64,000 nucleotides of DNA from Pseudarthrobacter chlorophenolicus A6 (GTDB taxonomy: Bacteria; Actinomycetota; Actinomycetes; Actinomycetales; Micrococcaceae), in NCBI RefSeq assembly GCF_000022025.1, contig NC_011886.1:3451209-3515208 (forward strand), read 5' to 3'. Each line of letters starts with the position of its first letter. The stretch's first letter is position 1. The position numbers and the translations under genes are program-made. Positions 23,221-41,164 of this stretch are shown here, piece after piece. The notes beneath the pieces were generated by a model. The model searched no databases and was not told where the DNA came from. It saw nothing but the letters and a program-made list of their open reading frames with translations.

Positions 23221-24966
23221 ATGGAGACGGTTGGCGGAGCGGCAGTGGAGGTGGGGCGGGCAGTTGCCGTTGCGCCGTCTGCTGTCCGACCGGTCGGCGG
23301 GCACGACCTGACTGGGGGTGGCACTGCTCGCCAGCACGTTCAACGCCCCGGTCCTCGGCCGACCAAGCCGCTGGCCCTCCCTCTCGCGGGATCTCTTCCG
23401 GCTCCGCCCCAGCCGCCAGCTGAGCAGCCCTCAGGCGTCGGGGTTCATTCTCCTTCTGGCACCGCGGGCGCTGGGGTTCTGGGTGTTGTTGATGCCTTGC
23501 GTATATTGGCTGATGTTCCAGCTGCTGCCAATGGTGCGGGGATGATTGATCAGCTCCGGCAGCTTGAGGACGTGAAGGCTGTTGCGGCGGCGAGGCAGGC
23601 CGAGATCACTGTCGCGTTCGACTTGGTGCAGCGGCGGGAGCAGGCCGCTGCCGGTATCCCGGCTAAGGAACAGGGCGCCGGGGTAGGGGCGCAGGTGGCG
23701 TTGGCGCGGCGGGAGTCCCCGTCCCGGGGCGGGCGGCTGCTGGGACTGGCGAAGACCCTGACCGGGATGCCCCACACCTTCGCCGCGTTCCGGTCCGGAC
23801 GGTTGAGTGAGTGGCGGACCACGCTGGTGGTGAAGGAAACCAACTGCCTTTCACCCGAGGACCGGGCGGGGGTCGATGAGGAACTCGCCGCCGACACCGG
23901 CACCTTTGATGGGGCCGGGGACCGGACCATCATCTCCGCGGCCAAAGCCGCCGCGTACCGGCGGGACCCCGTCTCGGTGGCCAGGCGGGCCGCCAAAGCG
24001 GTGGGGGCACGGACGGTGAGCCTGCGCCCGGCCCCGGACACCATGGCCCGGCTGACCGCGCTGCTGCCGGTCGCCGAGGGTGTGGCCGCCTACGCTGCCC
24101 TCAGCAGGGAGGCCGGCACCCTCCGGTCCTCCGGGGATGGCCGGTCAACGGGCCAGATCATGGCCGACACCCTGGCTGAACGGATCACCGGGACCCCGGG
24201 CGGGATCAGCGGGGTCCAGGTCCAGCTCGTCATGACCGACCGGACCCTGTTACAAGGCGACAGCGAGCCGGCCCGGCTCGCCGGGTACGGCATCGTGCCC
24301 GCCGCCTGGGCCCGCGAACTCGCCGCCGGACACCAACCGGGCACGGGCACCAACACCCGCGCCGCCAGCCGTGCCAACCCAGAACCCGGGGCCGACCCCG
24401 CGTCCGCGATGGCTGTCTGGGTTCGGAGGCTCTACACCGCCCCCGGCACCGGTGAGCTCATCGGTTTGGATTCCAAGCCCAGGCTCTTCCCGGCAGGACT
24501 CAAACGCTTCCTCCAGATCCGGGACGACACCTGCCGGACCCCGTACTGCGACGCACCCATCCGCCACCACGACCACATCACCCCCTGGCACCACGGCGGC
24601 AACACCACAACCAACAACGGCCAAGGACTCTGCGAAGCCTGCAACCACACCAAAGAAAGCCCAGGCTGGAGTTCAAAACCCATCCCAGTGCCCGAAAACC
24701 CGCAGCTTCCGGACCCTACACGGATCCCCGACGGGCCACACGATGTCAGGCAAGTCGCCCGCCATACCGTCAGGCTCCGAACCCCCACCGGCCACACCTA
24801 CCACTCCACCGCCCCACCACTCCCCGGGACGGCCTTCACCCATGCCAGCAGCCCGAGTAAGCATGCGGGCATAGCAGGAGCACCGGCGCGGGCACCCGGC
24901 AAGCCCCCGCTTCCACGACCCGCGATCCAAGTCTTGGGCCGCGTCATCCAGGCCGGCGTTCCTTGA
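23221..24966 (+). CDS. DUF222 / HNH endonuclease domain protein (13E12 repeat family)
   Basis: A 581-residue protein of the actinobacterial 13E12 family. A DUF222 domain occupies about residues 100-400, and a C-terminal HNH domain at about 435-480 shows [23 protein letters not shown] and CEACNHTKE, with the His450-Asp451-His452 core and paired cysteines for zinc. Such genes are typically multicopy in Arthrobacter and mycobacteria. Some are thought to be selfish or mobile, but function is unproven. It interrupts two sugar-transport clusters and lies between two strong hairpins. The first 95 residues are low-complexity Pro/Ala/Gly, so the true start may lie downstream. Confidence 0.82.
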
Positions 24967-25175: not shown

Positions 25176-26528
25176 CTAGCTGATGGCCGACTTCATTTCG
25201 TCGACGGCCTTCTTGCCTGCCTCATCCGTGGAAAGCCGTTCAAAGAGAACCTCGGAGGTGTACCGCTTGATGATCTCCTGGATGGCGCCTGCACCCTTCG
25301 GCGGCGGAGCCGGAGCCTCGCCCAGTTCGTCCTTGATCTGGTCAATGAACTTGACCACCTTCACGTCGGCCGGGGTCAGCTTGGATTCAATTGCGGCACG
25401 GACGTCAGAGTTGGGGTACACGCCGCGGTCGGCCAGGAGAGTCTCACCGGCTTTGACGTTGTTGGTCAGGAAGTTGATGAACTTGGCGGTTTCCTCAGGG
25501 TGCTTGGTCCGCGAGGATGCGGACCAGAACTGGGATGCCTTGTACCAAAGCCCGGCATCGGCAGAGGACCCGGTCTTGGTGGGGAACCGCAGAATCTTCA
25601 GGTCCGCGCCTGATGCCTTTTCCAGGGCGGGTGCCTGGTTGGACCACCAGAAGGCCAGCCCGTTCTTACCCGTGGCCAGGCCGCTCTGGTCCAGCGATGC
25701 GGCCTCGGCCTCAACCACCTCGGATGCTGACGGGACGGCCTTGTTCTTGCTGAGATCCTTCAGGAATGCCCACCACTCCGCGATGTCGCTGGGCTCGAAG
25801 CCGAGCTTGCCGTCCGAGGTGTAAAGCGACTTGCCGTTCTGGCGGAGCCAGACACCCAGGGAAGCCTCGTCGGTGCCGTATGCGGCGGCGCCATAGGTGC
25901 CCTTTGGCGACTTCTCAGTCACTTCGGCGGCGATGCGGCCAAAGTCTTCCCAGGTCCACTTGGAGTCATCCGGCAGCGGAACACCGGCAGCTTCGAACAC
26001 CTTGGGGTTGGCAAGGATGGTGGCAGCGTTGATGCCGGCGGGGATGCCCGTCAGTCCGTCCTCGCCCTTGCCGGCGTTAAGGGCGGCCTCGTCCAGCTTG
26101 GTGGTGTCGATGTCGTACTTCGACAGGTCCAGCAGGGCTCCGCGGGTGGAGTACTCGGTGATGTACTTCTCGTCCATCTGGATGATGTCAGGAGCGTCGT
26201 TGGCGGCCACCTGGGTGGCCAGCTTGTCCCAGTAACCGCTCCAGTCGCCGAATTCCGGCTTGATCTTGATTTTGGGGTTTTCCGCCTCGAACTGCTTGAT
26301 GGCTTCCTGCGTCAGCTGGGCGCGCTTGTCGCCGCCCCACCAGGAGAAGCGGAGTTCGACGGTTCCGTCGGCGCTCTGAGGGGCGGATCCTGAGCCGCAG
26401 GCACTGAGGGCCATGACGACGGCGGCTGCCGCGGCTACGGCGCCCGTCTTGCGGAAGCGGCGGGCCGGGCGGGTGGAGGGAGTCTCTGCAGGCTGCCGGG
26501 CAGCTGAGGGACGGGAGAAAAGCGGCAC
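25176..26528 (-). CDS. Sugar-binding lipoprotein, CUT1 family
   Basis: A 450-residue binding protein with a long 44-residue leader ending in lipobox LSAC (Cys44). It is strongly similar to the orphan binding protein at 14108-15394 and more distantly to that at 29045-30340. The GTG at 26528 has GGAG 7 bp upstream. It lies 300 bp downstream of the permease gene at 26829-27770 on the same strand but has its own promoter, with a perfect AGAAAGCGCTTTCT operator and a second dyad. It may therefore be expressed separately from the permeases. Substrate is unknown; context suggests uronate-containing oligomers. Confidence 0.92.
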   Translation of the reverse strand: MPLFSRPSAARQPAETPSTRPARRFRKTGAVAAAAAVVMALSACGSGSAPQSADGTVELRFSWWGGDKRAQLTQEAIKQFEAENPKIKIKPEFGDWSGYWDKLATQVAANDAPDIIQMDEKYITEYSTRGALLDLSKYDIDTTKLDEAALNAGKGEDGLTGIPAGINAATILANPKVFEAAGVPLPDDSKWTWEDFGRIAAEVTEKSPKGTYGAAAYGTDEASLGVWLRQNGKSLYTSDGKLGFEPSDIAEWWAFLKDLSKNKAVPSASEVVEAEAASLDQSGLATGKNGLAFWWSNQAPALEKASGADLKILRFPTKTGSSADAGLWYKASQFWSASSRTKHPEETAKFINFLTNNVKAGETLLADRGVYPNSDVRAAIESKLTPADVKVVKFIDQIKDELGEAPAPPPKGAGAIQEIIKRYTSEVLFERLSTDEAGKKAVDEMKSAIS

Positions 26529-26654: not shown

Positions 26655-26705
26655 AGAAAGCGCTTTCTGGTTCCAATGCTACAAGTGGTCAACTTGTAGT
26701 ACAAG
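26655..26705 (-). promoter_or_regulatory. Promoter with LacI-B-type operator and overlapping GntR-like dyads
   Basis: On the minus strand TTGTAC (26699-26704), a 17-nt spacer and TAGCAT (26676-26681) form a candidate promoter for the binding-protein gene at 25176. Just downstream, AGAAAGCGCTTTCT (26655-26668) is a perfect 14-bp palindrome. Over the promoter sit CTACAAGT / ACTTGTAG (26679-26686 and 26692-26699) and the odd-length palindrome CTTGTAGTACAAG (26693-26705), a GntR-operator-like pattern. The rest of the 300-bp interval 26529-26828 shows no gene. Confidence 0.6.
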
Positions 26706-26828: not shown

Positions 26829-27770
26829 TTACTTGATGCCGGTGGTGGCGATGCCCTTGATGAGGAACCGCTGGCCGAAGAGGAACACCAGGAACACGGG
26901 GAGCAGGGACACGATAGACATGGCGAACAGTGAGCCCCAGCTGGTGGCTGACTGGGAGTCCACGAACGCGCGCAGTGCCACGGGAACGGTGAACATATCC
27001 GGGTCCGTGAGGTAGATCAGGGCGCCGAAGAAATCGTTCCAGGTCCAGATGAAGGTGAAGATGGTGGTGGTGGCCAGGGCCGGGACCATCAGCGGCAGGA
27101 TGACCCGCAGGAAGATCCGGGGATGGCCCGCGCCGTCGATGCGTGCAGCTTCATCAAGGTCCTTCGGGATGCCGCGGATGAACTGGACCATCAGGAACAC
27201 GAAGAACGCGTCCGTGGCCAGCAGCTTCGGCACGATCAGGGGCCAGAAGGTGTTTACCCAGCCGATCTGGGAGAACAGGATGTACTGGGGAACGATGATG
27301 ACGTGGAACGGCAGCATGATGGTCAGCAGCATGATGCCGAAGAACAGCTTCTTGCCGGTGAACTGCAGCCGGGCGAAGGCGTAGGCGGCCATCGAGCAGG
27401 AGATCAGGTTGCCCAGGATGGATCCGATCACCACGATCGCGGAGTTGATCATGTAGTGGCCGAACGGGTGGGTCAGTGCGGACCAGCCCGAGGTGTAGTT
27501 GCTCATCTCCAGGCTGTTGAGCCAGAGTCCCGGTTCGCGGAAGATCAGCTCGTTGGGCCGCAGGGATGAGACAACCATCCACAGCAGCGGGTAGATCATC
27601 AGGCCGCCGGCCAGGATCAGGATGGCGTGCTTCGTCAGCGCTTTGGTCCGCTGCGCCCGGCTGAAGGCCAAGGTGCCGCGGGACTCGCGGGGCTTGCGGT
27701 GGTTCGTAGGCTTACCGGCCCCTGCGGACTTCTTGTCCGAGGCGGGCAGCGTCTCCAGGTTAGTCGTCAT
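26829..27770 (-). CDS. Carbohydrate ABC transporter permease, CUT1 MalG type
   Basis: A 313-residue permease with a 45-residue basic N-terminus and six predicted helices. The EAA loop is DEAARIDGAGHPRIFLRVIL, and the C-terminus GQRFLIKGIATTGIK is family-typical. It overlaps the partner permease gene by 11 bp, indicating coupled translation. Sequence is clearly similar to the permease at 17488-18405 but less so to the Lpl-type one. Confidence 0.93.
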   Translation of the reverse strand: MTTNLETLPASDKKSAGAGKPTNHRKPRESRGTLAFSRAQRTKALTKHAILILAGGLMIYPLLWMVVSSLRPNELIFREPGLWLNSLEMSNYTSGWSALTHPFGHYMINSAIVVIGSILGNLISCSMAAYAFARLQFTGKKLFFGIMLLTIMLPFHVIIVPQYILFSQIGWVNTFWPLIVPKLLATDAFFVFLMVQFIRGIPKDLDEAARIDGAGHPRIFLRVILPLMVPALATTTIFTFIWTWNDFFGALIYLTDPDMFTVPVALRAFVDSQSATSWGSLFAMSIVSLLPVFLVFLFGQRFLIKGIATTGIK

Positions 27771-28704
27771 AGAAAACCCAATACTTAGAAGCGATGAAGT
27801 TGATGGCGGTGAAGACGCCGATGATGAGCAGCAGCACCCACGCCATGGCGGACGCGTAGCCCATGTCGAACTGGCCGAAGCCCTTCTGGTACAGGTACAG
27901 CGTGAAGAACATCGTGGAGTCCGACGGCCCGCCGTTGCCGCCGGAGACGATGAACGCCTGCGTGAACGACTGGAACGAACCGATAATCTGCAGGACCAGG
28001 TTGAAGAAGATGATCGGGCTCAGCATCGGCATCGTGATCCGCCAGAACTGCTGGAGCGTGGTGGCACCATCAACCTTGGCTGCCTCGTAATACATCACGG
28101 GAATCTGCCGCAGGCCCGCCAGGAAGATAATCATCGGCGCACCGAACGTCCAGACGTGCAGCAGGATGATGGACCCCAGCGCAGTCCCCGGATCCGAGAT
28201 CCAGCCCGGACCCTGGATCCCGAACATCGCCAGAACCTGGTTCACCAGGCCGGTGGTGCCAAAGATCTGCTTCCACAGGATGGCCACAGCCACGGAACCG
28301 CCCAGCAGGGACGGCAGGTAGAACACCGAGCGGTAGAACGGCAACCCGCGCAGGCCCTTGTCCAGCACCAGAGCGATCAGCAGCGCCACCGCCAGCTGCA
28401 GCGGGACACCCACGAACACGTAAGTGAACGTCACCCGCAGGGAATTGTGCAACCTTGCGTCACTGAGCATCCGGATGAAGTTATCCGCCCCGGTCCATTC
28501 CGGCGGCTGCAGCAGGTTGTAATCCGTGAAGGACAGGTAAAGGGACATCACCATCGGGCCGATGGTGATGGCCACCAGGCCCACCAGCCACGGCAACAAG
28601 AAGATGTACGCGGCCTTATTGTCCCGGCCATTCGCCTTCTTCTCCTCGGCAGTGGCCTTGCCCTTGCGCCGGCTAAGGGAGCTCAGCTCGCTGATGGCGC
28701 TCAT
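27760..28704 (-). CDS. Carbohydrate ABC transporter permease, CUT1 MalF type
   Basis: A 314-residue permease with a basic N-terminus, helix 1 starting AAYIFLLPWLVGLVAITIGP, and EAA loop YEAAKVDGATTLQQFWRITM. The ATG at 28704 has GGGGGAG 6 bp upstream; the frame is open further upstream but without family similarity. It is divergent from the binding-protein gene at 29045 across 340 bp, so two different binding proteins (25176 and 29045) flank this one permease pair. Confidence 0.93.
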   Translation of the reverse strand: MSAISELSSLSRRKGKATAEEKKANGRDNKAAYIFLLPWLVGLVAITIGPMVMSLYLSFTDYNLLQPPEWTGADNFIRMLSDARLHNSLRVTFTYVFVGVPLQLAVALLIALVLDKGLRGLPFYRSVFYLPSLLGGSVAVAILWKQIFGTTGLVNQVLAMFGIQGPGWISDPGTALGSIILLHVWTFGAPMIIFLAGLRQIPVMYYEAAKVDGATTLQQFWRITMPMLSPIIFFNLVLQIIGSFQSFTQAFIVSGGNGGPSDSTMFFTLYLYQKGFGQFDMGYASAMAWVLLLIIGVFTAINFIASKYWVFYDD

Positions 28705-28939
28705 CGCCGCTCCCCCGCTCCATGCGTCAGGCCCGGCGCAACCGGCATTCCTGCCGGGCGCGGTGCCCTGGGTATCTGCTTTGCGGCCATGTGGTCTCCT
28801 TTGGTCATCGTGGCCTCCACGTTTTGGGTCATCGCCGGGGCGATGAGTGTCAGCACCCCGCGCCGTCCTGGAACCGTTGTGGAAACCGGCTGGGACCGGC
28901 CGCTGGAGGTACTGGATGAAAAAGCGGCTCCGTACCAAA

Positions 28940-28997
28940 GTAAACGGTTTCTTGACTCCTGTATAGCCCTTTGTTAGTTTTTGAGAAAGCGTTTTCT
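28940..28997 (+). promoter_or_regulatory. Promoter with LacI-B-type operator for the gene at 29045
   Basis: TTGACT (28952-28957), a 17-nt spacer and TAGTTT (28975-28980) form a candidate promoter, followed 3 bp later by AGAAAGCGTTTTCT (28984-28997), the same operator class as at 26655, 40885 and 40961. A further half-related palindrome GTAAACGGTTTC precedes it (28940-28951). It sits in the 340-bp divergent interval 28705-29044, which has no other evident feature. Confidence 0.65.
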
Positions 28998-29044: not shown

Positions 29045-30340
29045 ATGAGGTTTCGTCGGAAGAAGTCTGTAATGGGGGCGGCTGCTGCAACAGCCGTACT
29101 GGCCTTGGCGCTCACAGGTTGTGGCAGCAGTCCGCAGGCCGGAAAGGTCGGCACGGCGGAGGATCCCGTGACCATCCGTTTCGCCTGGTGGGGCAACGAT
29201 TCCCGCGCCAAAACCACGCTTGAAGTCATCAAGGACTTCGAAGCGGCCAACCCCACCATCAAGGTGCAGGGCGAGAACACTGAGTTCAGCTCCTACTGGG
29301 ACAAGATGGCCACGCAGATTGCGGGCGGCACCACCCCGGACGTTTTCGCCATGAGCGGTTCCTACCCCAGCGAATACGCGTCGCGCGGGGTGCTGCTGGA
29401 CCTGGACAAGGTCAAGGACCAGATCGATACCTCCAAGTTTGCCGACGGAACCGTGGAGTTGGGCCAGCTGGACGGCAAGCAGTACACCATCACCGCCGGC
29501 GTCAATGCCATGTCCATGGTCCTTGATCCCACAGTGTTTGAAGCCGCCGGCGTACCACTGCCGGACGACGAAACCTGGACCTGGGACGACTACGTCGATA
29601 TTGCCGCCAAGATCAGCAAGAACTCCCCCGCCGGCACCTTCGGCACCACGCCGATGTCCAACGATTCGTTCGTTGCCGTCTGGGCACGCCAGAGCGGCGA
29701 AGAGCTGTACACGGACGACGGAAAGAAGATGGGTATCAGCGAGGGCACCCTCGCCAAGTGGTTTGAGTTCAACAAGAAACTCATGGACACCGGCGGCGCA
29801 CCTTCCGCGTCGCAGACCGTCGAAGACGGCTCAGCGCAGCCGGAACTGACGCTGATGGGCCAGGGTAAGCAGGCGATGAAGGTGTCGTGGAGCAACCAGA
29901 TGACCTCTTACTCGGGTGCGCCCCTGACCATGGTGAAGCTGCCCGGGGAAAGCAAGCAGCCGGGAACCTGGCTGCGCTCCTCCATGGAGTACGCCATCTC
30001 GTCCAAGTCCGCCCAGTCCAAGGAAGCTGCCCTTTTCATCAATTATTTGGTGAACAACATGGATGCTGCCAGCAAGATCAAGAGTGACCGCGGCATGCCC
30101 GCCAACACCGATCTCAAGGCGGGCATCACCCCCCTGCTGAAGGAAACCCAGCAGAAGGAGGCGGGATACCTGGACCGCATCGCCGAGCTGGACGTCAAGC
30201 CGCCCCAGCCGTTCCCGGCAGGTTCTTCTTCCACCCTGGAAGTTTTGAACCGATACAACACGGATGTACTCTTCGGGAAGATCTCGCCGCAGGATGCGGC
30301 AAAGGGCGTCATCAGTGAGGTCAATTCGAACCTGGGGTAG
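29045..30340 (+). CDS. Sugar-binding lipoprotein, CUT1 family
   Basis: A 431-residue binding protein with a basic signal peptide and lipobox LTGC (Cys26). Family segments include TIRFAWWGNDSRAKTTLEVI and SSYWDKMATQIAGG. It is the first gene of a plus-strand unit with the alpha/beta hydrolase, the Gfo/Idh-DUF6807 fusion and the M24 homologue, and probably delivers their substrate through the divergent permease pair. A hairpin after its stop could reduce read-through and give higher expression of the binding protein than of the enzymes. Confidence 0.92.
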   Translation: MRFRRKKSVMGAAAATAVLALALTGCGSSPQAGKVGTAEDPVTIRFAWWGNDSRAKTTLEVIKDFEAANPTIKVQGENTEFSSYWDKMATQIAGGTTPDVFAMSGSYPSEYASRGVLLDLDKVKDQIDTSKFADGTVELGQLDGKQYTITAGVNAMSMVLDPTVFEAAGVPLPDDETWTWDDYVDIAAKISKNSPAGTFGTTPMSNDSFVAVWARQSGEELYTDDGKKMGISEGTLAKWFEFNKKLMDTGGAPSASQTVEDGSAQPELTLMGQGKQAMKVSWSNQMTSYSGAPLTMVKLPGESKQPGTWLRSSMEYAISSKSAQSKEAALFINYLVNNMDAASKIKSDRGMPANTDLKAGITPLLKETQQKEAGYLDRIAELDVKPPQPFPAGSSSTLEVLNRYNTDVLFGKISPQDAAKGVISEVNSNLG

Positions 30341-30350
30341 CCACCCCGGT

Positions 30351-30390
30351 GCACCGGCCGCAGTCAGCCCGACCGCGGCCGGTGCTTCTT
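30351..30390 (+). terminator. Hairpin after the binding-protein gene, possible partial terminator
   Basis: GCACCGGCCGC (30351-30361) pairs with GCGGCCGGTGC (30375-30385) and is followed by TTCTT. It lies 10 bp after the stop at 30340 and before the hydrolase gene, so it may attenuate or stabilise the upstream message. The T-run is weak. Confidence 0.55.
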
Positions 30391-30426
30391 CGCACCAACG
30401 CATGACATCAGACAGGAGGCAGGCCA

Positions 30427-31569
30427 GTGGCAGCCGTTACCAACAGTTCCAGGCCCAGCGCCATCGCCGGCTATGAGGACTGGCCTGCCTATGTCCGCAA
30501 TCATCCGCAATACACCGCAGCCACCCCTGCCGGACAGGGCCTTGCGGATGCGCTGGGGGTCCCCGGTGCATCAGGCCGGCCGGCCGTCACGGTGCACTGG
30601 GAAGTAACGCACGACGACGTCACCACCTCCCAGCTCAGCTGGCAGCTGGGCTTCGGCCCGCGCACCACGGGCTGGCTGGCACGTCCGGCCGGAAGTACGG
30701 AGACCCTGCCCGGCATCCTGGCCCTGCACTGCCACGGCGGCAACAAGTTCGGCGGGGCAGACCGGCTGGTGGACCTCCCGGAGAGCCACCCCTCCGCTGC
30801 AGCCGCCCGCGCCGGCCACTACGACGGCCGGGCCCTCGCCTCCGAAACCGCCCGCCAAGGATTCGCCGTCCTGGCCCATGACTCCTTCGCCTGGGGCAGC
30901 CGCCGTTTCGACCTTTCAACGCCTCCGTGGCGTACCGCCTCCGCGCTGGAGGCGCGGCGGGCACAATGGCGGGAGGACGACGTCGTACCTTCCGAAGCGG
31001 ATCTCTACAACGCGGCAGCAGGGTTCCATGAGGACACCGTTGCCAAGACCGCCGGACTGCTGGGCACCAGCCTGGCCGGCATGGTGGCCCACGACGACCT
31101 TGCGGCGCTGGACATCCTCGCCCACCTGCCCGGCGTCGATGCGGACCGCCTGGGCTGCGTCGGTTTCTCCGGCGGCGGCGGCCGGTCCCTTGCCCTCGCG
31201 GCCCTGAGTCCCCAAATCCGCGCCTCGGTAGTGACCTGCATGATGACCACCTTCGAATCCCTGATGCCTGCCTACCTGGACGCCCACTCCTGGCTGCTGC
31301 AGACTCCCGGGCTATGGAAGCTGGGCGACTGGCCGGAACTCACGGGCCGCTCCGCCGCCCGGTTCCTGGTGCAGTACGCGCTGGCCGACGAACTCTTCCC
31401 GGAGGACGGCATGCGCCAGGCCCACCGGACTCTGGAAGCCCTGAACGGCGGCGGCCGCTACACCGGAAGTTTCTGGCCCGGCGGGCACGTCTTCACTGCC
31501 GCCATGCAGGATGAAGCGATCGGTTTCCTGGCCGCTTCCCTTGCCCTTGCAGCGTCACCCGCCTCCTGA
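30427..31569 (+). CDS. Alpha/beta hydrolase, putative esterase
   Basis: A 380-residue cytoplasmic alpha/beta hydrolase. The oxyanion-side motif is LALHCHGGNKFGG and the nucleophile elbow GFSGGGG gives Ser248. Asp321 (ALADELFP) and His354 (GGHVF) are well placed as the rest of the triad. The GTG at 30427 has an AGGAGG 7-12 bp upstream. The family includes acetyl and dienelactone-type hydrolases, and an acetyl or methyl esterase role on imported pectin fragments is plausible, though unproven. It lies 26 bp before the Gfo/Idh-DUF6807 gene. Confidence 0.75.
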   Translation: MAAVTNSSRPSAIAGYEDWPAYVRNHPQYTAATPAGQGLADALGVPGASGRPAVTVHWEVTHDDVTTSQLSWQLGFGPRTTGWLARPAGSTETLPGILALHCHGGNKFGGADRLVDLPESHPSAAAARAGHYDGRALASETARQGFAVLAHDSFAWGSRRFDLSTPPWRTASALEARRAQWREDDVVPSEADLYNAAAGFHEDTVAKTAGLLGTSLAGMVAHDDLAALDILAHLPGVDADRLGCVGFSGGGGRSLALAALSPQIRASVVTCMMTTFESLMPAYLDAHSWLLQTPGLWKLGDWPELTGRSAARFLVQYALADELFPEDGMRQAHRTLEALNGGGRYTGSFWPGGHVFTAAMQDEAIGFLAASLALAASPAS

Positions 31570-31594
31570 TAATCCCAACCCCAAGGACCCTTTG

Positions 31595-33685
31595 ATGATT
31601 TCGCACTCCGCCACCGCGGAACCGGACAGCCGCCCCGAGGACAGCGCCGCCGCCGGCACTGCAGTACCCCGCATCGCCCTGGTGGGCGTCCATGGCTTCG
31701 GCGAACGCCACCTTGCCAACCTGGCCCGGCTGGAAGAGGCAGGGGCCCTGGAGCTCGTGGCCGTCGCCGATCCCAACCCGCCGGCGCCCGGCCGGCTCAA
31801 GGACACGGTGGCCGTCTTCCCCGATCTCAACAGCCTTCTGGCAGCGCAGGCAACTGCCGGGGCCCGTGCGGACGTCGTCATCCTCGCCACCCCCATCCAG
31901 ACCCACGCGCCCTTGGCCACAGCCGCCCTGGCTGCCGGGCTGGACGTGTACGTGGAGAAGCCCCCTGTGGCGTCCCTGGCCCAGTTCAACGAGGTCCTGG
32001 CCGCTGCGGAGTCGTCAGGCCGGCTGGTCCAGGTGGGCTTCCAGAGCCTGGGTTCGCATGCCCTCCCGGCCATCCGCACCCTCGTGGAGTCCGGCGGCAT
32101 CGGCGAAGTGCTAGGCCTGAGCGCCAGCGGCCAGTGGGTGCGGACCAAGTCCTACTTCAAGCGGTCCCGGTGGGCCGGCAAGCGCAGCCTGGACGGCGTC
32201 GACGTGGTGGACGGCGTAGCCACCAACGCGCTGGCCCACGCCGTAGCCACCGCCCTGCACATGGCCGGGGCGCACACGCTGGCCCATGTCGCTTCCGTGG
32301 AAACAGACCTCTACCGCGCGCACGAAACCGAAAGCGACGATACGTCGGTGATCCGCGTCCGGACCGCCCACGGCACCACGTTGCTGTGCACCCTTACCCT
32401 ATGCGCGCCTGAACAGGTAAACCCGTCCGTCACCGTCCACGGCACCCGCGGCGAGATCACCTTCTTCTACACGGAGGACGAGGTAGTGATCAGCACGCCG
32501 GACGGCGAGCGCCGGGAGAAGTGCGGCCGCACCGATCTGCTGGAAAATCTGCTCGAAGCCCGCTCCACCGGAGCCCCGCTCCTGGCCGCGGTGGCGGACA
32601 CGGGCGCCTTCACTTCGGTCCTCGAAGCCATCCGCACGTCACCAACGCCGGAGCCGATTGATCCCGCGCACATTACCTGGGAGGGCGAAGGCGACGATGC
32701 CCACCCCGTGGTGCACGGCATCGTGGAACTGTTCGACCGCGCCGCCAAGGCGCAGGCCACCTTCGCCGAACTCGGCGTTCCCTGGGCGCGGCAGCTTCCG
32801 CCCGTCCGGACCCTGACCGTGGACGGGCACCCCGTGGCGGACTACCAGGACGGCAGCCACATCCGCGCCGTCTCCTCGCCGCGACCCTACCTGCACCCCG
32901 TCCGCACCCTGTCCGGGACTGTAGTCACGGACCACCAGCCGCTGGACCACGTGTGGCACCTCGGCGCCGGCGTGGCACTCCAGGATGTGGACGGCGTGAA
33001 TTTCTGGGGCGGCCGCACCTACACCCGGGAGGCCGGGCAGTACGTCTGGCGGCCAGACCACGGCAGCATCGCCGTCACCAGCACGGATGCGGAGGAAACG
33101 GCCGCGGTTACCGGGGGCGCCGAAGGCCGGCTTGAGGAACGCCTGAGCTGGAACGGGCCCGACGGCGGCCCGGTCCTCGTGGAGGAACGCCGCTGGAGCT
33201 GGACAGGAGTCAGCGCCTCGGCCTGGCGCCTGTCCCTTGAGTTCGCACTCTCCCCCGCCGGAGACCAGCCGGTCAGCCTGGGCAGCCCGGGGTCCAACGG
33301 CCGCTTCGAGGGTGGCTACGGCGGATTCTTCTGGCGGCTGCCGGAATGCGGTGGCGCAAAGGTCTGGTCACCTGCCGGAACCGGTGAAGCAGAGGTCCAC
33401 GGCACGGTCTCCAGGTGGCTTGCCTGGACTGGAACTTTCGGTGCCGGAACAGACCGGACCGGCGACGCCACCCTCGTGTTCGTTGCCCCGGAATCCTCCA
33501 CCGATCCTTGGTTTGTCCGGGTGGACGGCTACCCGGGAGTGGGCCAGTCCCTCGCCTGGGATACGCCTGCTATTGCAGAACCCGGCAGCCCCGTGCGCCG
33601 GAGCATTTCCGTCCTGGTGGCCGACGGCTCCCTGGACACAACCGACATCGAAGCACTGATCACACAACAGGGGGACCTCTCATGA
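31595..33685 (+). CDS. Gfo/Idh/MocA oxidoreductase fused to a DUF6807 (PmoA-like) domain
   Basis: A 696-residue two-domain protein. Residues 20-400 are a Gfo/Idh/MocA oxidoreductase (PRIALVGVHGFGERHLANL, EKPPVASL) closely paralogous to the protein at 9493-10755. Residues 410-690 (from PPVRTLTVDGHPVADYQDGS) match DUF6807, a beta-sandwich family labelled PmoA-like whose function is not established. The start at 31595 has AAGGA upstream. It overlaps the M24 homologue gene by 4 bp. An oxidation or epimerisation of a sugar derivative with substrate binding or assistance by the DUF6807 domain is the simplest reading; it is inference. Confidence 0.8.
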   Translation: MISHSATAEPDSRPEDSAAAGTAVPRIALVGVHGFGERHLANLARLEEAGALELVAVADPNPPAPGRLKDTVAVFPDLNSLLAAQATAGARADVVILATPIQTHAPLATAALAAGLDVYVEKPPVASLAQFNEVLAAAESSGRLVQVGFQSLGSHALPAIRTLVESGGIGEVLGLSASGQWVRTKSYFKRSRWAGKRSLDGVDVVDGVATNALAHAVATALHMAGAHTLAHVASVETDLYRAHETESDDTSVIRVRTAHGTTLLCTLTLCAPEQVNPSVTVHGTRGEITFFYTEDEVVISTPDGERREKCGRTDLLENLLEARSTGAPLLAAVADTGAFTSVLEAIRTSPTPEPIDPAHITWEGEGDDAHPVVHGIVELFDRAAKAQATFAELGVPWARQLPPVRTLTVDGHPVADYQDGSHIRAVSSPRPYLHPVRTLSGTVVTDHQPLDHVWHLGAGVALQDVDGVNFWGGRTYTREAGQYVWRPDHGSIAVTSTDAEETAAVTGGAEGRLEERLSWNGPDGGPVLVEERRWSWTGVSASAWRLSLEFALSPAGDQPVSLGSPGSNGRFEGGYGGFFWRLPECGGAKVWSPAGTGEAEVHGTVSRWLAWTGTFGAGTDRTGDATLVFVAPESSTDPWFVRVDGYPGVGQSLAWDTPAIAEPGSPVRRSISVLVADGSLDTTDIEALITQQGDLS

Positions 33686-34794
33686 CCCAGACAACAGCTG
33701 CACCGCCGCAGGCTGTCCGCACCGCCCCGGCCTCGGTCCGGGACCGCGCGGTGAAGCGCCGTCGGGTGCTGGACATCCTGGACGCATCGGGCAAGGACGC
33801 CCTGCTGCTCACCACCCACACCGCCCTGACCTGGTACCTCGACGGCAGCCGCGTGCACATCAGCCTCGCCGGCGATCCCATCGCCGCGCTGCTGGTGGAC
33901 CGCTCCGGCGACCACCTGGTGACATTCAACAACGAAGCCGGACGCATCGCCGCTGAGGAACTGCCCGAAGGCGTGGCCCTCCACAGCGTGCCCTGGTACG
34001 GGAACCTCCACCAGGCTGCGGCCGCCGTCGGCAGCGTCCCCGGCGGATCCCTCCTGGCCGAAGCCGACGCCGCCACCGAACTGCGGGCGGCGCGCCAGCA
34101 GCTGCTCCCGGCCGAGAGCGCCCGCTACGCCGGGCTAAGTGCTGACGTCGCCGCCATCATGACCGATGTCCTGTCCACTGCACGCCCGGAGACCACGGAG
34201 TTCGAGCTGGCGTCAGCGCTGGCCGCCCGCGTGGTGGCCGCGGGCGCTGAGCCCCTGGTGCTGCTGTGCAACGGCAGCAGCCGCAGCGGGTTCCGGCACC
34301 CGCTGGCTACGCACGCGCCGCTGGGCCGCCGCGCCATGGCGGTCATCTGCGCCCGCCGCGACGGGCTGGTTGCCAACATCACCCGCTGGGTAAGGTTCGA
34401 CGCCGGCACTCCGGAAGAGCGCGACGCCGAGTCCCGCATCGCGGCAGTGGAGGCGGACATTTTCGACGCGACGGTTCCCGGCGCCCGGCTGGACCGCATC
34501 TTCACCGAAATCCAGGCCGCGTATACCCGGCACGGCTTCGGCGCCGACCAGTGGGAACAGCACCACCAGGGCGGCCCGGCCGGCTACGCAGGCCGCGATC
34601 CCCGGGTCACCGCCGCAGCCACGGACACTGTGGTTCCCGGCCAGGCCTTCACGTGGAACCCATCCGGCCCGGGCGTCAAGATCGAGGACACCGTGCAGCT
34701 CACGGAGAACGGGCTCCAGGTCCTGACTGTCGATCCCCGCTGGCCCGCCACCACCGTGAACGGGCTGGACCGGCCCGCGACGCTGGAGTTGTAA
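33682..34794 (+). CDS. M24 family (Xaa-Pro peptidase/creatinase fold) protein lacking most metal ligands
   Basis: A 370-residue protein with the pita-bread fold of the M24 family. Aligned to methionine aminopeptidase, the five metal ligands Asp, Asp, His, Glu, Glu correspond to Ala224 (ICARRDG), Asn232 (VANITR), His294/295 (HHQGG), Asn326 (FTWNP) and Glu335 (KIEDT). At least three are replaced, so dimetal peptidase activity is unlikely. Creatinase is a known metal-free M24 hydrolase that uses His and Glu. The stop/start overlap (ATGA) with the DUF6807 fusion ties it to that sugar pathway. Function is unknown; a palindromic terminator follows. Confidence 0.75.
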   Translation: MTQTTAAPPQAVRTAPASVRDRAVKRRRVLDILDASGKDALLLTTHTALTWYLDGSRVHISLAGDPIAALLVDRSGDHLVTFNNEAGRIAAEELPEGVALHSVPWYGNLHQAAAAVGSVPGGSLLAEADAATELRAARQQLLPAESARYAGLSADVAAIMTDVLSTARPETTEFELASALAARVVAAGAEPLVLLCNGSSRSGFRHPLATHAPLGRRAMAVICARRDGLVANITRWVRFDAGTPEERDAESRIAAVEADIFDATVPGARLDRIFTEIQAAYTRHGFGADQWEQHHQGGPAGYAGRDPRVTAAATDTVVPGQAFTWNPSGPGVKIEDTVQLTENGLQVLTVDPRWPATTVNGLDRPATLEL

Positions 34795-34879: not shown

Positions 34880-36331
34880 CTACGGAAGCTGCAGTTCGCC
34901 GTCCACGCGGCGCGGAATTCGCAGCGGGTTCTCTTCGCGCAGGGCGGGGTGGAGCACCGTTTCCGGGGCGTCCTGGTAGGCGACGGGACGCTGGAAGCGG
35001 CGGACCGCCGTCGCGCCCACCGAGGTGAACAGGGACGTGGTGGCCGGGTACGGGCCACCGTGCTGCTGCGCCCAGTTCACGGCAACGCCCGTGGGCCAGC
35101 CTTCGAACAGGACCCTGCCGGCGAGCCCGGACAACTGCTCCACGAGCGCATCGATCTCCTCGCCGGGCTCGGCGTGGAGTGTGGCGGTCAGGCTGCCCGG
35201 CACCTTGGCCAGGACCGCGGAGAGCTCTTCCTGGTCCGTGTACTCGATCAGCATGGTGGTGGGGCCGAAGCACTCCTCCAGCAGCTGCTCCGGGCGTTCC
35301 AGCACCTTTGCGGCAGTGGTGGAGAAGACCACCGGCGCCGCACCGTTGGCCGCAGCATCCTGGTCCACGGTGCCGCCCACCACGTCCACGCCCTCCACCG
35401 ACGCGAAGCTGCGCAGGCCGTCCGGGTAAGCCTCGGCAATACGGCTGGTAAGCATGTTGTGGGCCGGCTTGTCCTTGCTGGCCTCGGCCACGTCCGCGGC
35501 GAAGGACGTTCCGGCCGGGATGAACACCAGGCCGGGCTTGGTGCAGAACTGTCCGGCACCCAGGGTGAAGGAGCCCGCCAGCCCGGTGGCGAGTTCGCTG
35601 GAACGTTCCGTCAGTGCAGCGGCCGTAATGACCACCGGGTTGAGGCTGCCCAGCTCGCCGTAGAACGGAATCGGATCCGGGCGGGACGTGGCGAGGTCGA
35701 ACAGTGCCCGGCCGCCGGGGATGGAGCCCGTGAAACCCACCGCCTTGATGGCAGGGTCCTGCACCAGGGCTGTTCCCACTTCCCGGCCGCTGACCAGGGC
35801 GAAGAGGCCTTCGGGAGCGCCGGCGCCGCGGAGGGCGTCCGCAACGATTTCCGCTGTCCGCTCGGACAGCCGCACGTGGCCGGAGTGGGCCTTGACGATG
35901 ACGGAGCAGCCAACGGCCAAGGCCGAAGCCGTATCGCCGCCGGCAACGGAGAAGGCGAACGGGAAGTTCGACGCCGAGAACACCGCCACCGGGCCGATGG
36001 GCTTCAGGATGCGGCGCAGGTCGGGCTTCGGCGGGGTGGAGGACGGGTCCGCGTGGTCGATGACCGCTTCGAGGTAGGAGCCCTCGGTGATGACGCGCGC
36101 GAACAGGCGCAGCTGGCCGGTGGTGCGGGCCACCTCTCCGGTCAGCCGGGCAGCGCCGAGGCTGGTTTCGGAATCGGCGATCTCCACCAGTTCCGCGGCG
36201 TTCGCGTCCAGGGCGTCGGCCACCGCATTCAGCCAGCCGGCCCGCTCGGCGTCGGAAGCCGCTGCCGACGTGCGGGCGGCCTCGGTAGCCGCCGCGGTCA
36301 GCTCGGACAGGGAAAGCGTTGCAGTTGTCAC
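34880..36331 (-). CDS. 2,5-dioxovalerate (2-oxoglutarate semialdehyde) dehydrogenase
   Basis: A 483-residue aldehyde dehydrogenase. Catalytic Cys263 is in GAGQFCTKPG and the general base Glu226 in FYGELGSLNP. The unusual GELGSLNP and GQFCTKPGL forms are characteristic of ketoglutarate semialdehyde dehydrogenases, which make 2-oxoglutarate, usually with NADP. It is the last step of the oxidative hexuronate and pentose routes and lies just downstream of the enolase-superfamily and KdgD genes, which would supply its substrate. Confidence 0.88.
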   Translation of the reverse strand: MTTATLSLSELTAAATEAARTSAAASDAERAGWLNAVADALDANAAELVEIADSETSLGAARLTGEVARTTGQLRLFARVITEGSYLEAVIDHADPSSTPPKPDLRRILKPIGPVAVFSASNFPFAFSVAGGDTASALAVGCSVIVKAHSGHVRLSERTAEIVADALRGAGAPEGLFALVSGREVGTALVQDPAIKAVGFTGSIPGGRALFDLATSRPDPIPFYGELGSLNPVVITAAALTERSSELATGLAGSFTLGAGQFCTKPGLVFIPAGTSFAADVAEASKDKPAHNMLTSRIAEAYPDGLRSFASVEGVDVVGGTVDQDAAANGAAPVVFSTTAAKVLERPEQLLEECFGPTTMLIEYTDQEELSAVLAKVPGSLTATLHAEPGEEIDALVEQLSGLAGRVLFEGWPTGVAVNWAQQHGGPYPATTSLFTSVGATAVRRFQRPVAYQDAPETVLHPALREENPLRIPRRVDGELQLP

Positions 36332-36389: not shown

Positions 36390-37493
36390 TCACACGGCAT
36401 CCCGGAACCGGAAGCCCAGCCCGGGACGGTCCGCCAGGGTGACCCGGCTGTTGCTGAACCGGACCGGAGACGGCCCGTCCAGGATGCCCAACTGCTCGAA
36501 GGACGCCTCTTCAACGTCCTCCACCAGCGTGGGCTCCGCCAGGGTCAGCGCCAGCTGTCCGGAAAGCTCCGGCAGCAGGTGCGGCATCACCTTGATGCTG
36601 TTGGTCCGTGCCAGCTCCACGATCCGCCGGAACGGGGTGATCCCGCCAACCCGGATGATGTTGGGCTGGATGATGTCCACCGCCTCCGCCTCAATGAAAT
36701 CGCGGAACCGGTAGATGGTGTGCAGGTTTTCGCCGAGGGCGATGGGCACCGGTGAGTGCTTGCGCAGCCTGCGGTAGGCCCAGAGGTCATCCGCTCGGAG
36801 TGGTTCCTCCAGCCAGTCCAGCCCGTATTCGGAGAGCACCTCCAGTGCGCGGAAGGTGGTGGGCAGGTCCCACCGCTGGTTGGCGTCGATCATCAGCCGG
36901 CGGTCCGGTCCCAGGACGGAACGGACGGCGGCCACGCGCTCGGCATCTTCGCGGAGGTCCGGTTTGCCCACCTTGATCTTCACGGCCTGGTGGCCGGCGG
37001 CCACCCAGCGTTCGGTCTGGGCCACCAGTTCGTCCAGGGTGTAGTGCAGGTTCACCCCTGATCCGTAGACCTCGGCGGACTCCTGCCGCTGGCCGATCAG
37101 CCCGGTGACCGAGGTGCCGGCGTTGCGCGCCTGCAGGTCCCACAGGGCGAGATCGAGCCCGGCCATCGCGATGGTGGTCAGTCCCCCGCCGCCTGCCTCA
37201 TGCAGCCGTTTCCACACCGCATCCCATACCGTTTCCGGGTTGGCGGGCAGGCCGGTGACGAACGGTGCGATGTCGTAGTCCAGCAGCGCCTTAACCGCCT
37301 GCGGACCAATGGTGGGGGTCCAGGAAAAACCGAGCCCCGCGCCGCCGTCGTCCGTGTGGATCTCCGTGGCGATCACGTGGTTCTCCGGCGCCTCCGCACC
37401 CCAGTGCCGGCGGAGCGGGACGGTCAGGAGCCGGGTGGTCAGCCCGGTGATCCGGGGAACGGTGCGGACGGCAACGGCTGCGGGGGCACTCAT
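36390..37493 (-). CDS. Mandelate racemase/enolase-superfamily sugar-acid dehydratase or lactone cycloisomerase
   Basis: A 367-residue enolase-superfamily protein. Residues align with mandelate racemase at a constant offset of 8: Lys172-x-Lys174, metal ligands Asp203, Glu229 and Glu255, His305 and Glu325. The partner of the catalytic His (Asp270 in mandelate racemase) is Asn278 here, in QPNIIRVGG. Placed with KdgD and the ketoglutarate semialdehyde dehydrogenase, it probably acts on galactarate or galactaro-1,4-lactone to form the 3-deoxy-2-keto (5-dehydro-4-deoxy) acid. Dehydratase versus cycloisomerase cannot be settled from sequence. It overlaps the KdgD stop by one base (TGATG). Confidence 0.82.
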   Translation of the reverse strand: MSAPAAVAVRTVPRITGLTTRLLTVPLRRHWGAEAPENHVIATEIHTDDGGAGLGFSWTPTIGPQAVKALLDYDIAPFVTGLPANPETVWDAVWKRLHEAGGGGLTTIAMAGLDLALWDLQARNAGTSVTGLIGQRQESAEVYGSGVNLHYTLDELVAQTERWVAAGHQAVKIKVGKPDLREDAERVAAVRSVLGPDRRLMIDANQRWDLPTTFRALEVLSEYGLDWLEEPLRADDLWAYRRLRKHSPVPIALGENLHTIYRFRDFIEAEAVDIIQPNIIRVGGITPFRRIVELARTNSIKVMPHLLPELSGQLALTLAEPTLVEDVEEASFEQLGILDGPSPVRFSNSRVTLADRPGLGFRFRDAV

Positions 37494-38395
37494 CAGCCGG
37501 CCAGCTCGTAGCCCCTGGCCAGGATGGCCTTGAGCTCCACAAGCTGCTCGTCGGTGGGGTCCACCAGCGGCGGACGGACCGGGCCCACCGGCAGGCCGCC
37601 CAGGCGCAGGCCGGCCTTGATCAGCGAGACGCCGAAGCCGGGGGTCTGGTCGCGCAGGCGGACCAGGGGCGCGTAGAAGCCTTCGAGCAGGGCGTTGCGC
37701 CGGTCCTCGTCGCCTGAAACGTAGGCGTCGTAGTAGGCCTTGGCGATCTCCGGTGCCATGGCGAACGCTGCCGAGGAATAAAGCGGGATGCCGAGGCCGC
37801 GGTACGCGCCCTGGGTGAGTTCGGCAGTGAGCAGGCCGTTGAAGAACGCGAAATCCTCGCGGCCGGTTGCCTTGACGGCGGTCACGATTTCCTGGGCCAG
37901 GCCCACATCGCCCAGCCCGTCCTTGAAGCCCACCACCTTGGGGTTGGCGGCCAGTCGTGCCATGGAGGCAGCCGTGAACTTGGCGTTGCCGCGGTGGTAG
38001 ACGATCACCGGCAGGCTGCTGGCGTCGGCAACGGCCTCGATGTAGGCCACCAGGCCGTCGGTAGGTCCGGTGACCAGGTAGGGCGGCAGGACCAGGAGGG
38101 CGTCAGCCCCTGCTTCCTCGGCTGCCTTGGCGGCGGCGAGGGCATGCCCCAGCGGTCCGCCGGCACCGGCCACTACGGGAACCTTGCCTGCCACGACTTC
38201 GACGGCGGCCGTGACCACGGTGCGGACCTCCTCGATGCTGAGGGCGTGGAATTCACCGGTACCGCAGGCAGGGAAGACGCCGCCCGGGCCGAACGGAAGC
38301 CGCGAAGCAATGTGTTCCTTGAGCAGGTCCACGTCGACGGCGCCTTCGGCCGTGAACGGGGTGACGGGGAAGAAGAGTACGCCGTCGAATTTCAT
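37493..38395 (-). CDS. kdgD: 5-dehydro-4-deoxyglucarate dehydratase
   Basis: A 300-residue dihydrodipicolinate-synthase-superfamily enzyme that dehydrates and decarboxylates 5-dehydro-4-deoxyglucarate to 2-oxoglutarate semialdehyde. The Schiff-base lysine is Lys158 (VGFKDG) and the conserved tyrosine is Tyr133 (VIVYHRG). The opening DGVLFFPVTPF and the substrate loop ACGTGEFHAL are KdgD-like. It overlaps the upstream SDR gene by 4 bp and the downstream enolase-superfamily gene by 1 bp, giving a tightly packed uronate operon. Confidence 0.9.
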   Translation of the reverse strand: MKFDGVLFFPVTPFTAEGAVDVDLLKEHIASRLPFGPGGVFPACGTGEFHALSIEEVRTVVTAAVEVVAGKVPVVAGAGGPLGHALAAAKAAEEAGADALLVLPPYLVTGPTDGLVAYIEAVADASSLPVIVYHRGNAKFTAASMARLAANPKVVGFKDGLGDVGLAQEIVTAVKATGREDFAFFNGLLTAELTQGAYRGLGIPLYSSAAFAMAPEIAKAYYDAYVSGDEDRRNALLEGFYAPLVRLRDQTPGFGVSLIKAGLRLGGLPVGPVRPPLVDPTDEQLVELKAILARGYELAG

Positions 38396-39357
38396 GATGT
38401 CTCCTTGGTTCCGCTGCCGGCGGTTACCAGCGCGGAGGTCTCGTCGTTGAGGGTTTGGTGGGACTTGAGTTCTGTGCGCCAGCTGCGCTTGGGCTGCCAG
38501 CCCAGCAGTTCCTGCGCTTTGGCGATGGAGAAGGCGGGGCTGGTGCCGGTGAGGCCGCCGCTGATGGCGTCGCTGCCGGGCAGGAACCCGGGCATGAGAT
38601 CAGCCAGGGGCTGGGTGGCCAGTGCATCGGCCGCACCCACAAAGAACGTCTCGCCGTTGGGGATGGACTCCATCCTGTCCAGCAGCAGGTCCAGGAACTC
38701 CGCCACGTCACGGGCGTCCACGTAGTTGAACAGGGCCGGTGCGGACAGGGCGGGATCGGCAAGCCGCTCGGCAAGGGTATGGCCCTGCTGGGTGGGGGCG
38801 CCTTCCCATTCCTCCGGGGAAATCACAAAGCAGGGGCGGAACGCTGCGTACCGGATCCTGTCCCCCTGCGCTGCAGCGAACATCTGGACTGTCTGCTCTG
38901 CGATGAGCTTGGACAGGGCGTAGGCATTCCACGGCTTGGCCGGCGTGCGCTCGTCCAGCGGGAACGACGGCGGGAGCCATCCGGCCGGCGAACCGTAACC
39001 CAGCACTGTGGGGCTGCTGGCGGTGATGATTTTCGGGACGCCCAGTTCCGTCGCCGCACTGATGACGGCGAAGGCGAGCCGGGTGTTCGTGGCAAAAATG
39101 ACGTCCTCGGGTGCGCTGAACGGCACGGCGATCGCAGCGAGGTGGATGACGGCGTCGGGCCTGGCATCCCGGAGGAGGCGAAGGGCCTCCCCCGGTGCCA
39201 GCAGGTCCGCGGTGGCCTGTTCGACGCCCGCCGGCAGCAGTTCGGCCGGCAGTGCGTCGCGGTCCACCGAGATGACCTGGTGGCCGGCTTCGGCGAGCCC
39301 CGCCACCACACTGCGTCCCAGTCGGCCGGAGCCGCCGGTGACAAAGATCCTGCTCAT
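38392..39357 (-). CDS. NAD-dependent epimerase/dehydratase family SDR, candidate uronate dehydrogenase
   Basis: A 321-residue extended SDR. The cofactor motif is TGGSGRLG at residues 7-14, the catalytic tyrosine-lysine pair is YALSK, and the NAG-like segment is HLAAIAVPF. Uronate dehydrogenases are about 265 residues, so this one is longer. Its position in the operon fits oxidation of D-galacturonate to the aldaric lactone, the first step needed by the other genes, but a sugar epimerase is also possible. The gene lies 38 bp downstream of the Gfo/Idh gene. Confidence 0.7.
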   Translation of the reverse strand: MSRIFVTGGSGRLGRSVVAGLAEAGHQVISVDRDALPAELLPAGVEQATADLLAPGEALRLLRDARPDAVIHLAAIAVPFSAPEDVIFATNTRLAFAVISAATELGVPKIITASSPTVLGYGSPAGWLPPSFPLDERTPAKPWNAYALSKLIAEQTVQMFAAAQGDRIRYAAFRPCFVISPEEWEGAPTQQGHTLAERLADPALSAPALFNYVDARDVAEFLDLLLDRMESIPNGETFFVGAADALATQPLADLMPGFLPGSDAISGGLTGTSPAFSIAKAQELLGWQPKRSWRTELKSHQTLNDETSALVTAGSGTKETS

Positions 39358-40808: not shown

Positions 40809-40884
40809 GGGGTCCCTTTCGAAGACTGGTGCCCGGCCTGTTCGGTGATCCGGGGAGGTGGCGCGGTGCACTGCAGCACCGCTG

Positions 40885-40943
40885 AGAAAGCGTTTTCTCG
40901 GTTCGCTATAGAATTTGTATCAACAGCAACCTGCTTCCGTCAA
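40885..40943 (-). promoter_or_regulatory. Promoter and LacI-B operator of the uronate operon
   Basis: On the minus strand TTGACG (40938-40943), an 18-nt spacer and TACAAA (40914-40919) make a good sigma-70-type promoter. The perfect inverted repeat GAGAAAGCGTTTTCTC-type operator (core 40885-40898) lies about 15 bp downstream of the -10 box, overlapping the expected start site. This is a classic repression geometry. Confidence 0.7.
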
Positions 40944-41034: not shown

Positions 41035-41164
41035 CAATAGAAATCGCTTTCCCATCGCGTTATATGCTGTCTCTCAACACACCGCCATCAGGCGGCCGGA
41101 AGCTGCTGCAGCGCTGGCAATCCGGCCCGGGACCCCAAGTCCGTGGCGCTAGGAAAGGTTCCCT

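Follow-up and report, generated by a model that had tools for sequence, protein, structure and literature searches.

A Gfo/Idh-DUF6807 fusion and an M24 protein without metal site in a conserved gene unit of Pseudarthrobacter chlorophenolicus A6, the likely front half of a regulon for acidic sugars

Does a four-gene unit of Pseudarthrobacter chlorophenolicus A6 encode a catabolic system of its own, or does it belong with the hexuronate genes that lie next to it? The unit was studied in a stretch of 64,000 nucleotides of the genome (the window; contig NC_011886.1, positions 3,451,209 to 3,515,208). Its four plus-strand genes, for a solute-binding protein, an alpha/beta hydrolase, a fusion of a Gfo/Idh oxidoreductase with DUF6807 and an M24 family protein, were all confirmed at 29045-34794, where the initial annotation had placed them. 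The unit does not seem to be a pathway of its own; we conclude that it most likely forms the front half of a regulon for acidic sugars. What is new about it is DUF6807 and the metal-less M24 clade, which look like enzymes for undescribed steps and for which hypotheses of function are now offered.

Conserved linkage and a common operator type

Relatives of the M24 gene were collected from the same family and class. In the family sample 35 of 149 genomes had a match, and 31 loci were read after leaving out the own genome and three weak matches (24-27%). In the class sample 73 of 394 genomes had a match and 20 loci were taken; genome G351, split over two contigs, was counted and its locus left out. 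Another 20 loci were taken from the 42 class genomes that have the short-chain dehydrogenase/reductase (SDR) of the neighbouring operon and no close M24 gene. The class searches for M24 and SDR scored at most five candidates per genome, and misses are possible. DUF6807 was counted in the family and named loci only at an identity of at least 40% and when the match reached the C-terminal part; weaker or partial paralogues near M24 in L083 and L086-L089 were left out of the counts.

The DUF6807 gene was found within 250 bp of M24 and on the same strand in 27 of the 31 family loci. It was also present in 66 of the 80 named loci, in 63 of them within 300 bp of M24, and the co-occurrence on which the initial annotation had staked its proposal is thus borne out. 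An SDR orthologue stands near M24 in 30 of the 31 family loci, in all eight order or class loci and in 71 of the 80 named loci; in L051, the sole family locus without it, a contig end cuts the locus near M24. Together with the operator type that the two operons have in common, this contradicts the earlier claim that the unit does not fit the hexuronate genes. Among the 13 class genomes with an M24 gene of at least 44% identity, 12 carry the SDR (the exception is G157), as compared to 54 of 394 overall (Fisher 1.6e-10, kinship not removed).

Other members of the gene set accompany M24 to different extents. In the family loci these were the second, long Gfo/Idh oxidoreductase GFO3 (28 of 31), permeases G (22) and F (21), an enolase-type enzyme (18), the dehydratase KdgD (15), an aldehyde dehydrogenase (ALDH, 14) and the esterase (11). 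Outside the family the enolase-type enzyme was present in 8/8 loci, GFO3, KdgD and ALDH in 7/8 each and DUF6807, with the filter applied, in 2/8, and GFO3 was found in 72 of the named loci. By a clustering that can miss members, the 20 SDR loci without M24 contained the SDR (20), the enolase-type enzyme (18), GFO3 (16), KdgD (15), ALDH (13) and DUF6807/Gfo (12). No clear one-to-one substitute for M24 emerged when open reading frames from these 20 loci were clustered with those from 40 M24 loci, a noisy comparison with shadow frames included. The named M24 loci are mostly actinobacterial, the nearest named genome by M24 gene being that of Pseudarthrobacter chlorophenolicus Mor30.16 (99%). Records titled Acidobacteria, Sporosarcina and Vibrio cholerae (L180, L181 and L190) also have M24 loci, at 63, 65 and 50%, perhaps on contaminating or misbinned contigs.

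A LacI-type operator palindrome, GAAAGCGTTTTC, lies in the common divergent region between the unit and the permease pair, as the initial annotation had described. Sites of the same type precede the SDR/KdgD operon and the LacI gene (Table 1), and one-mismatch copies precede the second binding protein (26656-26667) and occur in the GH42 gene (20786-20797, inside the longest open frame and upstream of a start near 20846). With up to two mismatches and both strands counted, 19 matches were found in the window versus 2.35 expected, and none of 100 shuffles reached 19. The two-mismatch matches include 9428 and 15432, in the other catabolic part of the region, and 45082, 49538 and 60150 further right. 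When three variants of the palindrome were looked for, with one mismatch allowed, sites turned up in 30 of the 31 related loci (all but L066); about 0.08 are expected per 20 kb, from random sequences modelled on four of the related loci. Some occupy corresponding positions, such as the stretch from GFO3 to LacI in L041, L042, L046 and L048, and in L062 and L063 an exact palindrome separates the divergent SDR and M24 genes. Since a single operator type stands before the unit with its permeases, and also before the second binding protein, GH42, LacI and the SDR-KdgD operon, and since the DUF6807-M24-SDR linkage is conserved, the unit and the SDR-KdgD operon look like one LacI-type regulon conserved across the class, with predicted binding of LacI.

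The fusion protein and the proposed uronate route

The Gfo/Idh half of the fusion has a Rossmann domain, and Glu113-Lys114-Pro115 and His207 (A2 numbering) are invariant in 23/23 sequences; the lysine of the EKP motif and His207 are presumably catalytic. The protein most similar to this half is WlbA, which acts as a dehydrogenase on a uronic-acid sugar nucleotide. In six of ten M24-less loci checked (L107, L109, L118-L121) Gfo/Idh and DUF6807 are separate neighbours, and in four (L110-L112, L115) they form one frame, so the fusion unites two proteins that are elsewhere encoded by adjacent genes. Searching the sequences of solved structures with the DUF6807 domain gave no relative up to an E value of 5. 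The fold searches used the whole fusion; Gfo/Idh matches fill them and residues after 345 are barely covered. A GalM-like beta-supersandwich was considered for DUF6807 and gained no support from a profile comparison with four GalM sequences (probability 0.6%). No described function for DUF6807 was found in the PubMed Central searches, where one paper mentions it by name only; another reports PF14100 beside novel beta-galactosidases and an enolase-superfamily gene.

The reading that we prefer, tentatively and just short of calling it probable, is that a single LacI-type regulon serves to take up and break down a plant oligosaccharide containing uronate, and that the unit supplies the uptake and front-end functions. 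The binding protein and permeases would import the oligosaccharide and the esterase would remove ester groups. The Gfo/Idh half of the fusion would then oxidise C3 of a uronosyl residue, with GFO3 as a second Gfo/Idh working with the fusion, and DUF6807 would handle the keto intermediate by an elimination or hydration that breaks the glycosidic bond. The metal-free M24 protein might convert the freed uronate to the anomer or ring form required and the SDR would oxidise it at C1, after which the enolase-type enzyme and KdgD would dehydrate the oxidised uronate and the ALDH would deliver 2-oxoglutarate. If the fusion does cleave uronosyl glycosides, an acidic-sugar branch is added to the redox routes of glycoside breakdown. 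A modified pectin sugar, as the initial annotation guessed, may be the substrate: the window encodes GH42, and single related loci have in or beside them a PL11 protein with a GDSL esterase domain, GH43 or a pectate lyase. A literature search found no paper treating rhamnogalacturonan, Arthrobacter and Gfo together. In L056 a frame of 1786 residues (10738-16098) with PL11 rhamnogalacturonan lyase and GDSL esterase domains lies between M24 and SDR.

The lower part is similar to the oxidative uronate pathway of uronate dehydrogenase, hexarate dehydratase, KdgD and 2-oxoglutarate semialdehyde dehydrogenase, in that an SDR, an enolase-type enzyme, a KdgD subfamily member and an ALDH are found in one operon. 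It differs in the SDR, which branches off on its own between epimerases and uronate dehydrogenase, and in the added two Gfo/Idh proteins, DUF6807, metal-less M24 and oligosaccharide-type importer. KdgD scores 403.6 bits with the subfamily model NF002958 (cut-off 278), and the SDR, the enolase-type enzyme and the ALDH were assigned by neighbourhood. The enolase-type enzyme matches talarate/galactarate dehydratase best (230 bits) and arabinonate dehydratase second (130 bits). In its QPN motif it has an Asn (invariant in 18/18 sequences) where the five solved relatives shown carry Asp, and it may thus catalyse another reaction than galactarate dehydratase does.

For the front part the closest comparison is with 3-keto-glycoside pathways, among which O- and C-glycoside eliminases are reportedly counted (PMC10628242). 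The unit differs from them in that its partner is DUF6807 and not a PF01261 lyase, and its substrate is apparently acidic. The levoglucosan system LgdA-B1-B2-C (PMC10066097) is alike in combining two Gfo/Idh dehydrogenases with a second-step partner and an ABC importer. Sister clusters of the unit do carry PF01261 plus DUF993. One such undescribed sugar module, a trio of Gfo/Idh, DUF993 and PF01261 genes, lies directly 5' of DUF6807-M24 in L055 (4226-7496), and homologues of its Gfo/Idh and DUF993 genes were seen in 12 M24 loci and one M24-less locus.

Several results weigh against the uronate reading. With the 40% filter, DUF6807 was not found near M24 in L061-L063 and L066. A close M24 gene is absent from 42 of the 54 class genomes with the SDR and is therefore not essential. 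The genomic context of M24 is sugar catabolism in all loci read except L090, where an M24 relative at 44% has none of the partner genes and no recognised sugar setting. The NCBIfam equivalogs for 3-keto-glycoside dehydrogenases (BT_2158/BT_2159 type) were missed by far (28 and 34 versus 750 bits, 19 versus 650 bits). No PF01261 or DUF1080 lyase was found beside the unit among the 30 window proteins scanned (831-44401), and the only PF01261 match among these was the rhamnose isomerase at 831-1997, which at 29.8 bits stays below the cut-off. The lead of the WlbA structure over other Gfo/Idh rows amounts to no more than about 1-2 Z units, and by Foldseek taken alone an uncharacterised oxidoreductase comes first for the fusion. 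In the lower pathway, KdgD stays under the cut-off of the stricter equivalog TIGR03249 (284 versus 374), and the SDR scores 62.7 (6mfh) and 55.1 bits (3rft) with uronate dehydrogenases versus 67.3 with a UDP-glucose 4-epimerase. The enolase-type enzyme misses the cut-off of 500 and the ALDH scores 82 versus 770 and 90 versus 750 bits.

These ambiguous or missed cut-offs of the SDR, dehydratase and ALDH would also suit a route for a pentose or another sugar acid instead of a uronate, with GFO3 as an aldose 1-dehydrogenase, which we regard as unlikely. KdgD and ALDH types also end Weimberg-type pentose pathways, and the arabinonate dehydratase match, an arabinofuranosidase in L104 and the GH43 gene in L062 point the same way. 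A uronate is favoured over a pentose by the KdgD subfamily score, the better match of the enolase-type enzyme to talarate/galactarate dehydratase, pectin lyases in two related loci and the similarity of the Gfo/Idh half to WlbA.

The metal-less M24 protein

The M24 protein matches PF00557 and keeps the pita-bread fold of prolidase and creatinase. Four of the five positions that we take to be metal ligands (D, D, H, E, E) are lost, in agreement with its earlier description as ligand-less, and only Glu336 is kept. A two-residue gap before Cys224 stands in place of the first Asp, and Asn233, Gly299 and Asn327 stand in place of the second Asp, the His and the first Glu. This was read from an alignment with three canonical M24 relatives, of seven stretches, whose reading frame had to pass a motif filter; a HMMER alignment to 1wy2 agrees on the lost ligands, and one to 5cdl sets the ligand His opposite His296. 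Asn233, Gly299, Asn327 and Glu336 are invariant in 25/25 aligned sequences, which have 70 invariant columns in all. Among these, His207, His295, His296, Arg236, Lys334, Glu336 and Asp337 lie in or near the former active-site motifs, and His207, Lys334, Glu336 and Asp337 are kept in 21/21 sequences of a wider alignment.

The protein belongs to a metal-less clade with the motifs HHQGG, WNP and KxEDT, which many records name 'Xaa-Pro aminopeptidase' or 'M24 family metallopeptidase'. Creatinase, the ectoine hydrolase DoeA and the dimethylsulfoniopropionate lyase DddP are likewise M24-fold enzymes with other chemistry. The clade differs from them by an identity of 14-17%, its sugar-operon context and its own HHQGG and WNP motifs; a metal-free M24 fold is shared with creatinase at an identity of only 14-16%. 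In Pfam the protein matches only PF00557, and not the GalM family (PF01263). No literature tying M24-family or creatinase pseudoenzymes to sugars was found among titles and the beginnings of abstracts.

Distant members of the clade occupy two other kinds of operon, one of isomerase-kinase-aldolase type and one oxidative with its own lactonase. The first kind was found in eight loci (L091-L095, L096, L097, L101), where a homologue of an SftI-like isomerase and ABC transporter genes stand beside M24; a PfkB kinase was matched in six of these and a LacD-type aldolase in five. L096 and L097 also have a GH31 gene, and L096 an ALDH and what we read, with no family match, as a TauE-like protein. Six of the eight (L091-L095, L101) come from genomes of 1.3-1.8 Mb. 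The second kind is represented by L098 and L099, with an IlvD/EDD dehydratase, an SMP-30 lactonase and a zinc alcohol dehydrogenase, to which L099 adds a DHDPS-family enzyme and an ALDH. Because sugar operons of three kinds contain members of the clade, the names of many proteins could be put right by a single assay.

What the M24-bearing pathways have in common is an isomerase or C1 dehydrogenase that needs a free reducing sugar in the correct ring form. By analogy, the M24 protein might have a mutarotase-type activity on another fold than GalM, a possibility that we favour among the roles weighed here without thinking it likely. It would explain why the gene is optional, since mutarotation also runs uncatalysed. 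In sulfoquinovose operons YihR, or putatively SqvB, serves as the mutarotase or ring-opening partner of the isomerase (PMC9594981), and Arthrobacter sulfoquinovose clusters are reported to have no recognisable mutarotase gene (PMC8873060). The M24 loci resemble these operons in the SftI-like isomerase, the ABC importer and, in most, the kinase and aldolase, and a mutarotase would fit there. They differ in that sulfoquinovose is not established as their substrate. An assignment of L096 and L097 as sulfoquinovose operons was considered and left unproven: the SftI model, run on these two only, gave 278 and 269 versus a cut-off of 700, and their GH31 proteins are more like alpha-xylosidase (488 and 454 bits, cut-off 606) than YihQ (235 and 226, cut-off 553). 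A paper on freshwater sulfoquinovose (PMC13372026) has no mention of M24, peptidase or mutarotase, and no literature linking mutarotase activity to M24 was found.

GalM was found within 15 kb of the SDR in 4 of the 20 M24-less genomes (G298, G362, G454 and G468) and in none of 40 with M24 (Fisher 0.0099). This sole hint of a substitute for M24 comes from three genomes of one family and one of another, and in the isomerase-type sister clusters L125-L128 neither M24 nor a nearby GalM was found; both points count against a mutarotase, as does the relative in L090 with no recognised sugar setting. In its widest form the proposal is that the creatinase fold of the HHQGG clade has given rise to mutarotases or hemiacetal ring-opening enzymes of a new class, specific for sugars that are negatively charged at C6 (uronates and sulfo-sugars), and that Gfo/Idh-DUF6807 is a redox-dependent cleaver of uronosyl glycosides. 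We hold this combination to be more doubtful than the mutarotase role taken singly; if true, actinobacteria break pectin-type linkages without a classical glycosidase.

The M24 protein could instead be the missing lactonase, hydrolysing the hexarolactone made by the uronate-dehydrogenase-like SDR and thereby feeding the dehydratase. The M24-SDR linkage, kept even in L062 and L063, for which neither DUF6807 nor GFO3 was found, fits such a role, the genome of the window has no SMP-30 lactonase, and creatinase hydrolyses a carboxylate substrate without metal. We nevertheless consider it improbable. The clade members in L098 and L099 (33 and 32% identity) already sit beside SMP-30 lactonases, the eight in isomerase operons are where no lactone is expected, and two M24 genomes (G066, G042) have both M24 and SMP-30. 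In none of the 20 M24-less genomes was SMP-30 found within 15 kb of the SDR, and M24 is thus not replaced by a lactonase in these genomes. Moreover, one PF10282 lactonase is encoded elsewhere in the genome of the window, and an enolase-type cycloisomerase could take the lactone directly.

The lost ligands and the absence of M24 from many otherwise similar clusters would also agree with a non-catalytic pseudoenzyme, such as a pathway sensor or chaperone, but the invariant columns, with seven residues in or near the former active-site motifs and four of them kept in the wider alignment, make this very unlikely. Equally improbable is the reading of the initial annotation, a separate pathway for a modified pectin sugar: the undescribed enzymes, the esterase and the conserved DUF6807-M24 pair bear out a conserved catabolic unit, and the common operators and near-constant linkage to the SDR operon reject its independence from the hexuronate genes.

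Layout of the unit and its neighbours

The features of the locus are collected in Table 1. As first described, the binding protein and hydrolase genes are 86 bp apart (30341-30426) and the fusion and M24 genes overlap by 4 bp (ATGA, 33682-33685). The gap between hydrolase and fusion is 25 bp and not 26, if the fusion, whose frame is open from 31511, starts at the ATG at 31595. The presumed Ser motif of the hydrolase is GFSGGGGR. The permease pair and the second binding protein are on the opposite strand, divergent from the unit. Downstream of M24 follows the convergent ALDH-enolase-KdgD-SDR-GFO3 operon and then the LacI gene.

Table 1. Genes and operator sites in and around the four-gene unit (window positions).
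Feature	Position	Strand	Remark
GH42 beta-galactosidase	20693-22867	+	family match; later start near 20846
Second solute-binding protein	25176-26528	-	operator-type site 26656-26667
ABC permease G	26829-27770	-	family match
ABC permease F	27760-28938	-	true start probably near 28707 (our reading)
LacI-type operator palindrome GAAAGCGTTTTC	28985-28996		exact; between unit and divergent permease pair
ABC solute-binding protein	29045-30340	+	SBP_bac_1 match
Alpha/beta hydrolase, AXE1/DLH-like	30427-31569	+	weak: AXE1 30 bits, DLH 22.5 bits
Gfo/Idh oxidoreductase-DUF6807 fusion	31595-33685	+	DUF6807 226 bits, GFO_IDH_MocA (PF01408) 66 bits
M24/creatinase-fold protein without metal site (HHQGG clade)	33682-34794	+	39 bits
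Aldehyde dehydrogenase, presumed 2-oxoglutarate-semialdehyde dehydrogenase	34880-36331	-	equivalog cut-offs missed
Enolase-superfamily dehydratase or cycloisomerase	36390-37493	-	family match
KdgD-type 5-dehydro-4-deoxyglucarate dehydratase	37493-38395	-	NF002958 subfamily match
Extended SDR, uronate-dehydrogenase-like	38392-39357	-	family match, structure-relative scores
Long Gfo/Idh oxidoreductase (GFO3)	39396-40871	-	family match
Two exact operator sites	40886-40897, 40962-40973		upstream of SDR/KdgD operon
One-mismatch operator site	41040-41051		upstream of LacI gene
LacI-family regulator, presumed regulator of the gene set	41165-42199	+	adjoins same operon in many relatives

Between GH42 and the second binding protein lies a gene with an HNH endonuclease domain (23221-24966, plus strand), in otherwise catabolic surroundings. 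Another Gfo/Idh gene, within 9373-14111 on the plus strand, matches the Gfo/Idh half of the fusion at 68% DNA identity along 918 bp; it shares one base with a GH78 alpha-L-rhamnosidase frame, and the operator-like site at 9428 is found there.

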